Part shown: piece by piece, positions 48,443 to 52,997 of the stretch
Numbering within the stretch: the stretch's first letter is position 1
Layout: each line of letters opens with the position of its first letter
NCBI GenBank assembly: GCA_019309545.1
Contig: JAFDGA010000009.1
Coordinates: 1-64,000 of the forward strand
DNA length: 64,000 bases
DNA from: Deltaproteobacteria bacterium
GTDB taxonomy: Bacteria > Desulfobacterota > Desulfobaccia > Desulfobaccales > Desulfobaccaceae
Direction: 5' to 3'
The notes under the pieces: model-generated
The model's database searches: none
What the model was told of the DNA's origin: nothing
The model's input: the letters and a program-made list of their open reading frames with translations, nothing else
Position numbers and translations under genes: made by a program

Positions 48443-48471
48443 TTGACAAATCCTGGCTTACAAGATTAAAT
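48443..48471 (+). promoter_or_regulatory. Promoter of the tRNA-Gly-tRNA-Cys pair
   Basis: Perfect TTGACA (48443-48448), 17-base spacer, TTAAAT (48466-48471), 11 bases before the mature tRNA-Gly 5' end. Confidence 0.6.
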
Positions 48472-48482
48472 AATATTGCAGA

Positions 48483-48557
<75 letters not shown>

Positions 48558-48566
48558 TTTTTTTGG

Positions 48567-48641
48567 GGCGGCATAGCCAAGTGGTAAGGCAGCGGTCTGC
48601 AAAACCGTTATTCTCCGGTTCGAATCCGGATGCCGCCTCCA
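48567..48641 (+). tRNA. tRNA-Cys (anticodon GCA)
   Basis: Acceptor GGCGGCA/TGCCGCC, D arm AGTGGTAAGG, anticodon loop CTGCAAAA, T arm CCGGTTCGAATCCGG, U73 discriminator (a tRNA-Cys identity base) and encoded CCA. It is 9 bases after tRNA-Gly and shares its promoter. Confidence 0.95.
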
Positions 48642-48769
48642 GATTTTCCCAAAACTCAGCCCTTGTTGGACCTGGAAGCCAAGCTCGATAAATATAGGCA
48701 GTTATCATTCCGAATATTGCCTTGCCGGGCGTGCCGTAAACTTTCCTGCAATTAATTTAATCAATATTA

Positions 48770-49492
48770 ATGTCTGTGGTTAACCGCTTATTGCCGACCA
48801 TGGGCGGTCGGTTCGCCACTGCCCTGGGGATCGATCTGAAGGGCGGCCCCCAGGAGCGCCAGAAGTGGCTGCTGGCCGCCATTCTTTTTGGAGCGCGCAT
48901 TTCGGGAGAATTAGCGGCTCGCACTTACCAGGTGTTTGCCGCCAACCGCATTACCGAACCCCAGGCCATCCTGCGACAGGGGTGGGACCGGCTGGTAGAT
49001 CTGCTGGATGAGGGGGGCTATGCCCGGTATGATTTTAAGACTGCCACCAAGCTGTTGACTGCCATGGCAAACTTACAGCAGGATTATCAGGGCGATATAG
49101 AGCAATTGCATGCGGTGGCTCGGGATGCCCGCGATCTGGAGAAGCGGCTGATGAAACTGGCTCCTGGTATCGGGCCGACCACAGTGGAAATCTTTCTGCG
49201 GGAGCTTAGGGGTGTATGGCTCAAAGCCGCGCCACGCTTAAGCCCTTTGGCAGCGGAAGCTGCCAAGCATCTGGGGTTGGTGCCCTCAGGCTTAACGGCC
49301 CAGGCGGCCCTGGAGGCGCTGCAACAGTGTTGGGCCGCTGAGTCCCTGGCAGGATATGACTTTGCCGATCTGGAAGCCGCCTTGGTCCGCTTGGGGCGTG
49401 ATTACTGCCGCAAGGCCAAGGGCCCGCCCTGTCCTATGGCTGCCCATTGTCAGCGGCCTGAGTGCCCTCGCCGTCCTTTCCGAAATAAATGA
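48770..49492 (+). CDS. Divergent HhH-GPD (endonuclease III-like) protein
   Basis: A 240-residue helix-hairpin-helix protein with a C-terminal four-cysteine cluster. The HhH loop is KLAPGIGPTTVEIFL (about 129-143); where endonuclease III has a catalytic Lys (GRKTA) this has Thr, and the catalytic Asp of the VDTH motif is not evident (RGVWLKAAP). Cysteines C213, C221, C227 and C232 are spaced x7-x5-x4 rather than x6-x2-x5. It may bind DNA lesions without glycosylase action, or act by another mechanism. It is 128 bases after tRNA-Cys and has no clear ribosome site. Confidence 0.7.
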   Translation: MSVVNRLLPTMGGRFATALGIDLKGGPQERQKWLLAAILFGARISGELAARTYQVFAANRITEPQAILRQGWDRLVDLLDEGGYARYDFKTATKLLTAMANLQQDYQGDIEQLHAVARDARDLEKRLMKLAPGIGPTTVEIFLRELRGVWLKAAPRLSPLAAEAAKHLGLVPSGLTAQAALEALQQCWAAESLAGYDFADLEAALVRLGRDYCRKAKGPPCPMAAHCQRPECPRRPFRNK

Positions 49493-49595: not shown

Positions 49596-49919
49596 TTAAG
49601 TCCCGCCGCCACTCAGGTTCAGACCGATTATGCCAATAATCACCAGTCCGAGGGAAATCAACTTAAAGACGCTTACCGGCTCCTTAAACCACATCATGCC
49701 GGCGGTGGCGATCAACGCCGTTCCCAGGCCCGACCAGACGGCATAGGCAATGCTGACATCGATTTTTTTCAGGGCCAGGGTCAAGGAGACCAGGCTGAAG
49801 CCGTAAAAAATGAACATGGCCAGCGACGGCAGAAATTTGCTGAACCCCTGAGACAGCTTCATGGAAATGGTGCCGCTCACTTCTAAAATGATGGCCAGAA
49901 TTAGAAAAAACCAGGTCAT
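49596..49919 (-). CDS. SMR family small multidrug transporter
   Basis: A 107-residue protein with four membrane helices. The key membrane glutamate sits in LEVSGTISMKLSQGF (E13) as in EmrE, and VSIAYAVWSGLGTALIATAG and the C-terminal LGLVIIGIIGLNL match the small multidrug resistance family. It exports cationic compounds against protons; a spermidine or guanidinium role is possible. AGGAAAGG precedes the ATG. It is third in a same-strand run after ftsK and the proteasome-like gene. Confidence 0.88.
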   Translation of the reverse strand: MTWFFLILAIILEVSGTISMKLSQGFSKFLPSLAMFIFYGFSLVSLTLALKKIDVSIAYAVWSGLGTALIATAGMMWFKEPVSVFKLISLGLVIIGIIGLNLSGGGT

Positions 49920-49972: not shown

Positions 49973-50608
49973 TTAAATCCGATTCGTCAAGACTACAGGC
50001 TGATAGCCGTCAGGGGTAATAGTGGCAAAATAAAAGGGAGACGCGACTTCCTGGGTGGCGGCGGCCCGCTTTTCCAGAAATTCCCAGCTCATTTCCAGCA
50101 GTTCCGCCAACGGCGTCCCCTGTTGCAGGGCCTTCAGCAGCCGCATTTCCATACCCAGATGACGGGGCATGACGACCAACGGTTGAACCTGAAGGCGCTC
50201 CAAAGGCAAGACGTTGTTTTCGCTGGCCAGCAGGGAAACCTGGTAAGTTGGGGGCGGGGTCTGGGGCGCATAACCCGCCAGGATGAAATATATCCGGCGC
50301 AAGTCCTCCGGCTCCGGCCCGTGTTGGGCTAAATAACGGCCATAGGCTTGGGAGAGGAAGGAAAGGGCAAACCCGATGATGGCCTCAATCTCCACCAGGC
50401 GGCGCTGGTCGACTTCGTGGCGCAAGGCCAGCGACAGGGGCACGCTGACCCCGGAGCCGCCGCTTATTACGGCGGCATGAGTCCCCAACGGAAACAGCTT
50501 TTCCACCGTGAAATAGTGGCTCTGACCGTCCTCAGCAAAAGTGGTGGCCTGACTGTCGGTGGCCAGGATAATCCCATGCTGGTTGTATCCTACCAGAGCT
50601 TGGGTCAT
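49973..50608 (-). CDS. Stand-alone proteasome-beta-like Ntn hydrolase
   Basis: A 211-residue protein resembling the N-terminal part of 20S proteasome beta subunits. After Met removal Thr is first (TQALVGYNQHGIILATDSQAT), with Asp at position 17 as in T1-D17 proteases, and a Lys in VEKLFPLG near position 36 where K33 is expected. GGSGVSVPL follows. The spacing differs from HslV and the opening does not match Anbu. No alpha-type subunit, ATPase, Pup or hslU gene is in the window. AAGGAG lies 9 bases before the ATG. It sits 66 bases after ftsK and 53 before the SMR gene. Confidence 0.65.
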   Translation of the reverse strand: MTQALVGYNQHGIILATDSQATTFAEDGQSHYFTVEKLFPLGTHAAVISGGSGVSVPLSLALRHEVDQRRLVEIEAIIGFALSFLSQAYGRYLAQHGPEPEDLRRIYFILAGYAPQTPPPTYQVSLLASENNVLPLERLQVQPLVVMPRHLGMEMRLLKALQQGTPLAELLEMSWEFLEKRAAATQEVASPFYFATITPDGYQPVVLTNRI

Positions 50609-50674
50609 AGAAGATTCTCCTTATATTAACCTTTAATAGGGTAAGTAATAATTTAGAATTGGACTTTTGCTCAA

Positions 50675-52948
50675 CTATCTCCGGTGCGGCAGATAGACTT
50701 CCCGGGCCTTGATGCCGTCCGAGGGGCCGACCAGTCCTTCTTTTTCCATCATCTCAATGATCCGGGCGGCGCGATTATAGCCCACCCGCAGCCGGCGCTG
50801 CAGCATGGAAATGGAGGCCTGCCGGGTTTCAGCGACGATTTCCAGGGCTTCCTGGTATTTTTCGTCCTTTTCCCCCAATTCTTCTTCTTCAGCCTTCTGC
50901 TCCTGGATCTCCAGGATGCCCGGTTCAAATTCGGGGCTCCGCTGGGCCTTAAGGAAGTCAACCACCCGCTTGACCTCCTCCTCCGAAATGTAAGGCCCGT
51001 GAATCCGCTTCAGCCGCGACGTGCCAGGGGGCATAAACAACAGGTCACCCAGCCCCAAGAGCTTTTCGGCCCCTACCGTATCCATGATGGTCCGGGAGTC
51101 CACCTTGGAAGACACCTGAAAGGAAATCCGGGTGGGGAAGTTGGCTTTGATCAGGCCGGTGATGACATCGACAGAAGGTCTCTGGGTGGCCAGAATCAGG
51201 TGAATACCTGCGGCCCGGGCTTTTTGGGCCAGACGGATGAGATATTCCTCGGTCTCCCGGGCCGAGATCATCATCAGATCGGCCAATTCGTCGATGACGA
51301 TGACAATATAGGGCAGAGGCCGCACACTATCCTCTTCTTCCTGGTTTTTGGTCATTTTTAAGGTCTTAAGGATTTTGACATTGTAAGATTCAATATTGCG
51401 CACTTCCAGGTCGGAGAGCAGACCATAACGGCGTTCCATTTCTTCCACCGCCCAGCGTAAGGCGGTAGTGGCCACTTTCGGATTGATGACCACCGGATGC
51501 AGCAGATGTGGAATTCCCTCGTAAGTTGACAACTCGATGCGCTTGGGGTCGACCATCAGAAACCGCACTTCTTCCGGGCTGGCCTTGAAGAGAATGCTGA
51601 TGATCATGGCATTGAGTCCGACGCTTTTGCCAGTACCGGTGGCCCCGGCAATCAAAAGATGAGGCATCTTGCCTAGATCGGTGACCACCGGCTGCCCCAT
51701 GATGTCTTTGCCCAGGGCGATGGTCAGAGGAGAACGGGACTGGCGATAGATCTCATGGCCTAAGATTTCCCGCATGGTAACCAGTTGCCGTTTGGCATTG
51801 GGAATCTCGATGCCAATCACTGCCTTGCCGGGCACCGGGGCAACAATGCGAATCGATAGAGCCTTCAGAGCCAGGGCCAGGTCGTCAGCCAAGCTCGTAA
51901 CTTTGCTGATTTTTATACCCAACGCCGGTTCAAATTCAATCATGGTAATCACCGGGCCGGGACGCACCGCCACTACCTTGCCTTCCACCCCAAAGTGTTG
52001 CAGGGTATTTTCTAATTTTCGGGCCTGGGCCAATAAGGCTTCTTCCTGCACCTGGAAATCCCAGGCAGGCGGTGGATTCAAAAAATCCAGTTGAGGTAGA
52101 ATAAAGCTGCTCAGCGGTATGGCTTTGACCCGCTTCTGACGGCGAGAAACGGTTTCCGCCGAGGCCGATACCACTGGCTCCGGCAAGGGCTCGGCTGGCG
52201 GGGCAGCAGCGGCAGCGGCGTTAAGTGAGGTAGTCGGGTCCTCGGCTGAGGGCGGTATCAGCGAAGGCTGCGGTGATTCCAGAGGATTAGGCACTTCCGG
52301 GGCTTCCCGGCCGCGGCCGCAGATGGCCTGAACCAGCGCGGCTATTTTTTCCCGAATAAGCCCCAGCAAAGCAACGTAGGAGATTCGGGTCACGGCCATG
52401 AAACTGACCAGCAAAAGCGCCACTAGTGCCAGGGCGGTTCCGGCCAGATTGAGCCAGGGGGTCAACAGCACTAACAATCGCCATCCCAAGGTACCGCCGC
52501 CCAAAATCTGGCTGCCCCCCAAAGGGAACAAGGGCCAGCCCAGAGAGATCAGCCCGGCAGTGGCCAGCGGCAGCCCCAGATAAGCCAGCCAATGCCAGGG
52601 ATAGCGGAGGCCGGCATCCCCCTGGTAGAACTTTAGAGCCAGCCAACTCAATATAATGGGGAGCCAGAAAGCTGCCAGTCCCAGAGCCCGGATAAGATAG
52701 TCGGCGATCAGTGCTCCGGCTTTGCCCCCCCAGTTGGCTACCGGTCCAACCGCGGTCAGTCCAGCGGTATCAGTGGAACTATAAGAAAGCAGACTGATCA
52801 CCAGAAACAGGTCCAATACCAGCAACAGTAGGGCAATTATTTCTTGGCTCAGACGACGGCCCGGAGGAGGTGCCGCCGGCCCCTTGGCTGGTTTGGGCAA
52901 TATGGTTTTTGATTTTCGCTTACTCTTAGTTTTCTTGGGGCGTGCCAT
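50675..52948 (-). CDS. ftsK: DNA translocase FtsK
   Basis: Moves chromosome DNA through the closing septum and assists XerCD. It has 757 residues: four membrane helices (about 45-190), an acidic/proline linker, the alpha-beta motor with GATGTGKSVGLNAMI (about 470), VMVDPKRIELSTYEG and VIVIDELADLMM, and a C-terminal gamma winged helix (about 690-757, RRLRVGYNRAARIIEMME). The shorter linker is normal for non-enterics. ATG 52948 (MARPKKTKSKRK) is preferred; a TTG at 52987 is in frame, and neither has a clear ribosome site. Confidence 0.95.
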   Translation of the reverse strand: MARPKKTKSKRKSKTILPKPAKGPAAPPPGRRLSQEIIALLLLVLDLFLVISLLSYSSTDTAGLTAVGPVANWGGKAGALIADYLIRALGLAAFWLPIILSWLALKFYQGDAGLRYPWHWLAYLGLPLATAGLISLGWPLFPLGGSQILGGGTLGWRLLVLLTPWLNLAGTALALVALLLVSFMAVTRISYVALLGLIREKIAALVQAICGRGREAPEVPNPLESPQPSLIPPSAEDPTTSLNAAAAAAPPAEPLPEPVVSASAETVSRRQKRVKAIPLSSFILPQLDFLNPPPAWDFQVQEEALLAQARKLENTLQHFGVEGKVVAVRPGPVITMIEFEPALGIKISKVTSLADDLALALKALSIRIVAPVPGKAVIGIEIPNAKRQLVTMREILGHEIYRQSRSPLTIALGKDIMGQPVVTDLGKMPHLLIAGATGTGKSVGLNAMIISILFKASPEEVRFLMVDPKRIELSTYEGIPHLLHPVVINPKVATTALRWAVEEMERRYGLLSDLEVRNIESYNVKILKTLKMTKNQEEEDSVRPLPYIVIVIDELADLMMISARETEEYLIRLAQKARAAGIHLILATQRPSVDVITGLIKANFPTRISFQVSSKVDSRTIMDTVGAEKLLGLGDLLFMPPGTSRLKRIHGPYISEEEVKRVVDFLKAQRSPEFEPGILEIQEQKAEEEELGEKDEKYQEALEIVAETRQASISMLQRRLRVGYNRAARIIEMMEKEGLVGPSDGIKAREVYLPHRR

Positions 52949-52966
52949 GATCAATAATAAAAGATA

Positions 52967-52997
52967 GTAATATTCAGATAATACCAAATTGTGTCAA
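52967..52997 (-). promoter_or_regulatory. Candidate promoter of ftsK
   Basis: Minus-strand TTGACA (52997-52992) with -10 candidates AATATT (17-base spacer) or TATTAC (19-base spacer). The transcript would begin roughly 15 bases before ATG 52948. Confidence 0.35.

Follow-up and report, generated by a model that had tools for sequence, protein, structure and literature searches.

The minus-strand ORF at 49973–50608 of the window (the whole stretch of 64,000 nucleotides that was analysed) encodes a protein of 211 amino acids, which the ORF, its relatives and the predicted fold identify as a proteasome-β-like, putative N-terminal threonine hydrolase, probably of the PHD (Proteasome Homolog of Deltaproteobacteria) family. 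The start codon in the ORF list is ATG, and an AAGGAG Shine-Dalgarno-like site (50617–50622, minus strand) lies 8 bases before it, within the 18 bases preceding the ATG; such a motif stands at the matching place in 54 of 60 family members. Only four codons, with no start among them, separate the ATG from the in-frame stop upstream, and 39 of the 60 relatives resemble it in lacking any other possible start upstream. Because the ATG is the sole possible start, removal of Met would expose Thr2 and a propeptide is absent. Mature proteins of the family are accordingly predicted to start with Thr (Ser in other clades), without a propeptide. The gene is under purifying selection (dN/dS 0.12–0.16), and this value, the AAGGAG motif with the sole start, and the relatives across the order and phylum establish the ORF as a real gene. 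The draft genome of the host (2.43 Mb, 99% complete) contains dsrA, and the nearest relatives of the protein come from Desulfobacca MAGs (80% identity), consistent with the sulfate reducer proposed in an earlier, sequence-only reading.

The upstream neighbor is ftsK (50675–52987, minus strand, by Pfam), across a 66-bp gap, and the downstream neighbor is an SMR-family efflux gene (49596–49919, minus strand, PF00893). Neither is a conserved partner. The neighbors are glnS and an O-methyltransferase gene in two relatives of the window's own genus, whereas ftsK is again nearby in the sister genus, with a DNA methylase-like gene between. Genes for malQ, amylase, and phosphoglycerate mutase recur around the gene in a second family of the order, and other genes are found elsewhere. 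A conserved operon was rejected, as the neighbors differ among relatives even within the same genus. Since the ftsK/SMR order is not conserved beyond close relatives, it says nothing about the role of the gene, as the sequence-only reading had held. Fuchs et al. reported no telling gene context for the new proteasome-like families either (PMC8665760). No AAA+ protease partner was present in the neighborhoods examined, those of the window and of its relatives. The earlier statement that no α subunit, ATPase partner, or Pup system is near can be extended: the whole genome contains no 20S α/β pair by a PF00227 search, whose sole match is HslV with hslU beside it (G000:C32), and no Mpa/ARC (Pup ATPase) above the cut-off.

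Other features of the region were also noted. A 240-aa ORF at 48770–49492 (plus strand) contains the stretch GIGPTTVEIFLRELRG and, toward its C terminus, a cluster of Cys residues (CRKAKGPPCPMAAHCQRPEC); it is reminiscent of an HhH/EndoIII-type protein but has no Pfam match below E 0.1 and no NCBIfam match. Genes for tRNA-Gly(gcc) and tRNA-Cys(gca) lie at 48483–48641, and the 80-aa ORF that overlies both (48466–48708, minus strand) is spurious. A protein of about 209 aa that belongs to no Pfam or NCBIfam family is encoded divergently beside the active paralogue in four genomes, all from a single Desulfobacterota family, f71 (L076:5701–6327; also L078, L079, and L082).

Distribution and sequence relationships

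The family is small, found in Desulfobacterota, and biochemically uncharacterized. Relatives are present in 28 of 29 genomes of the host's order. Among 395 sampled genomes of the phylum, a single-sequence search recovered them in 45 and a profile search in 49, the weakest few of which are other proteasome-like families or chance matches. Coverage of other phyla consisted of one single-sequence contig scan, in which every match was titled as a deltaproteobacterial or Desulfobacca-related MAG. Phages and plasmids searched for the gene gave no match, and among viral models a fold search picked up nothing beyond generic proteasome-like proteins with 9–15% identity.

The window protein alone had no match in Pfam (E up to 10), NCBIfam, or the PDB (phmmer). 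A profile built from an alignment of 57 family sequences matched 20S β subunits in the PDB, with a best E of 6e-5, and 11 of the 57 relatives individually matched PF00227 (E up to 1; best 4.9e-5). At the edge of the profile are three more distant proteasome-like proteins from other Desulfobacterota (L163:2565–3299, L164:3473–4216, and L165:4682–5440); L163 matches PF00227, and L164 and L165 may be PMI-type families. An archaeal-type proteasome α subunit was also seen in a Desulfobacterota assembly (L125, G163:C119:147–677), probably on a contaminating contig.

Predicted fold and active-site residues

The AlphaFold2 model of the window protein, made with the 57-sequence alignment, has a pLDDT of 95.1 and a pTM of 0.91. 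It consists of two β-sheets and four helices arranged in pairs (55–69/74–96 and 151–162/167–184), without an insertion and without a C-terminal helix, the last strand being 201–205. A Foldseek search with the model retrieved 20S β subunits (E 3.2e-9, probability 1.00), and VIA-align placed a Rhodococcus β subunit first (Z 21.6; 2.4–2.5 Å across 190–191 residues). The protein is thus predicted to have the proteasome β fold. An Anbu chain scored Z 20.3, so close to the best row that the fold indicates the superfamily more than the family. In the VIA-align superposition, Thr2 of the model falls on Thr1 of the β subunits; the check by AlphaFold proposed in the sequence-only reading therefore places T1 in an Ntn fold. 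The β fold and the equivalents of Thr/Ser1, Asp17, and Lys33 put the protein in the proteasome-like Ntn-hydrolase superfamily.

The Thr2 codon (50603–50605, minus strand) would encode the catalytic Thr1 after Met removal, as judged from the structural alignment to β residue 1. All 50 distinct relatives that keep the lysine and have their N-terminus carry Thr (40) or Ser (10) at this position. The Asp of the triad, Asp18 (50555–50557, minus strand), falls exactly at 17 when Thr is counted as 1; of the 57 sequences that include an N-terminus, 53 have Asp here and 4 have Glu. The Lys33 equivalent is Lys37 (50498–50500, minus strand), which is Lys36 counted from Thr1 and is Lys in every T1 protein; it forms one conserved column in the 57-relative alignment, about three residues later than in β subunits. 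The earlier proposal of a T1-D17-K33 core was therefore correct for the first-residue Thr and for Asp17, and the lysine has to be moved to 36. Gly51 (Gly50 from Thr1; 50456–50458, minus strand), the Gly47 equivalent of the oxyanion hole, is invariant in 75 of 75 distinct relatives. Its spacing of 14 from the lysine presumably matches that of the T. acidophilum β subunit, which we take as a lead. The residues conserved at this depth, the profile E of 6e-5, and the fold Z of 21.6 together make the link to the proteasome more than chance.

A family signature, P-R-x4-E (Pro148, Arg149, and Glu154; 50147–50167, minus strand), marks the start of helix H3 and is invariant in the 57 sequences. Judged from secondary-structure positions, its Arg may occupy the place of proteasome Ser129, and the second-shell residues Ser129 and Ser169 seem not to be conserved, so that the S129 included in the earlier list of active-site positions is apparently not kept. 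This apparent replacement of Ser129 and Ser169 would favor a catalytically inactive window protein, but the triad and the oxyanion-type Gly are complete in all 40 distinct T1 relatives, unlike in a lysine-less clade of the family, and we regard inactivity as improbable.

A lysine-less sister clade

The family includes paralogues in which the lysine is replaced by Arg, Trp, Ser, or Cys (L045–L055, L058, L059, L063, L037, L041, L048, L014, L100, L111, L155–L157, and L167). Among the 75 distinct relatives, 23 lack the lysine, and position 1 in these is Ser in 8, Gly in 11, Ala in 2, Pro in 1, and Asn in 1; the P-R-x4-E signature is kept. This drift, set against the Thr or Ser of all lysine keepers, is the pattern expected if Thr/Ser1 and Lys work together. 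On the tree, the lysine-less paralogues form one clade of 17 rows with support of 100/99, and therefore the loss of the lysine counts as a single event and the later drift at position 1 was repeated. The dN/dS of the clade (0.05–0.30) is similar to that of the active genes of the same genomes (0.12–0.23), indicating that it is not decaying and is kept by purifying selection. The model of a lysine-less member (pLDDT 91.7) has the β fold without an alpha-type N-terminal helix, and its best structural rows are inactive and active β subunits, tied. This sister clade, maintained by selection, is a new observation here and is the part of our results that deserves specialist attention, offering a comparison for how inactive subunits, such as those of the α ring, arise from active ones.

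Where a lineage has both, the active and degenerate paralogues might join in a mixed complex, with a structural or regulatory part for the degenerate protein, as an independent analogue of the β/α division of labor; the lineage of the window has the active subunit alone. The single clade under purifying selection, the shared predicted fold, and the presence of an active copy in 18 of the 22 genomes with the lysine-less form speak for such a complex. However, four genomes (G057, G106, G215, and G299) hold the degenerate form alone, no locus that was read has the two genes side by side, and the co-occurrence is confounded by phylogeny; we therefore consider the mixed complex rather unlikely. The window's genome has the active form only. 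A doubtful, speculative extension in evolutionary terms is that a proteasome-like ancestor gave rise in Desulfobacterota, separately from the 20S proteasome, to a pair of active and inactive subunits. In such a mixed complex the Thr1-Asp17-Lys subunits would carry out catalysis and the lysine-less clade would supply an inert partner or a regulator, and the window's lineage would represent the homo-oligomeric state.

Probable function and comparison with known proteasome-like families

We consider it likely that the gene product is catalytically competent, a proteasome-β-like N-terminal nucleophile hydrolase without a propeptide and most probably a PHD member. The sequence-only reading had described a stand-alone proteasome-β-like protease gene; the gene is real, the predicted fold is that of β subunits (Z 21.6), and no partner system is present, while proteolysis itself is the part that we infer. 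The most likely function is that of an ATPase-independent, homo-oligomeric N-terminal threonine hydrolase. Methionine aminopeptidase would remove Met and expose Thr1, whose amino group would activate its hydroxyl, with the Asp17–Lys pair lowering the pKa. Gly50 would form part of the oxyanion hole as Thr1 attacks the peptide bond. The subunits may assemble via helices H1–H4 into a homo-oligomer of a single or double ring, which would need no dedicated ATPase to trim peptides that are unfolded or short. When the positions of the proteasome S1 pocket (PMC5666114) are transferred to the protein, the equivalents A20-V34-S48-G52-V55 suggest a preference for a small or neutral P1 residue, which is the least certain step of the proposal.

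The triad and the fold do not prove proteolysis, since Anbu, which has the same active site and binds epoxomicin at Thr1, failed to cleave any standard peptide that was tried (PMC5666114), and connectase, a member of the proteasome-like family, is a ligase (PMC8665760). The window protein could accordingly be something other than a degradative protease: a transpeptidase/ligase that works by connectase-like chemistry as a monomer or small assembly, or else a specific amidase. One relative weakly matches the connectase N-domain (PF09894, E 0.019), and there is no ATPase partner in the neighborhood. Connectase (MJ0548) shares the N-terminal Thr and the stand-alone gene with the window protein. 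However, the model keeps H1/H2 (55–69 and 74–96), which connectase lacks, and has only a short turn between strands 20–24 and 30–34 in place of the two-helix S3/S4 insertion of connectase. In both sequence and fold, the protein matches 20S β subunits best, and we judge the ligase or amidase reading unlikely.

The hydrolase that we favor resembles 20S β subunits (PF00227) in its fold, Thr1, Asp17, Lys, and the Gly47 equivalent, but it shows only 13–16% identity to them, has no propeptide, and is not detected by Pfam. Assignment as a 20S subunit was rejected because there is no partner α in the genome and the PF00227 gathering score is not reached.

That the protein is a divergent HslV or Anbu paralogue is highly improbable. 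The fold is the same, with the Anbu chain at Z 20.3 against the best 21.6; HslV has the N-terminal Thr in common with it, and Anbu the absence of a propeptide and of an AAA+ partner gene. HslV was nevertheless rejected, as the profile–profile comparison with 30 Desulfobacterota HslV sequences gave a slight similarity over 41 columns (probability 3.9%, E 0.011), ftsK and SMR stand beside the gene instead of HslU, and the genuine hslV/hslU pair is elsewhere in the genome. Anbu's long C-terminal helix H5 (PMC8665760, PMC5666114) is absent from the model, and its transglutaminase/ATP-grasp/Alpha-E operon is absent from the immediate neighbors of the window gene and the recurring neighbors of its relatives (Pfam). 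The view of the sequence-only reading that the protein is not HslV and matches Anbu poorly is thus borne out.

The model likewise differs from the PMI and WPH/ACC families. The insertion of PMI-2 to PMI-6 between H3 and H4 is absent, helix 151–162 being directly followed by 167–184, as is the C-terminal coiled-coil helix of WPH/ACC. BPH is distinguished by a long acidic pore loop; the loop from H2 to the following strand in the model is about 10 residues (97–105).

PHD is one of 22 new families described in silico (Fuchs, Alva, Lupas 2021, PMC8665760), about whose functions almost nothing is known; it comprises 55 sequences at 90%, has OGP72033.1 as its representative, and is placed in group II. 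A literature search found no later paper characterizing it. The earlier suggestion of a separate Ntn-hydrolase family therefore stands as regards its place outside HslV and Anbu, but the family is probably not new, PHD having been listed in 2021. The text of PMC8665760 describes catalytic residues in the homologues it covers and mentions no lysine-less branch, in which the present family differs. The window protein probably belongs to PHD, a match made by distribution and description and not by sequence: both are mainly deltaproteobacterial, both follow the Thr/Ser1-Asp17-Lys33 logic on a β fold, and no special insertion is described for PHD, in agreement with a family that is near-universal in its order and compact, with no insertions and no propeptide.
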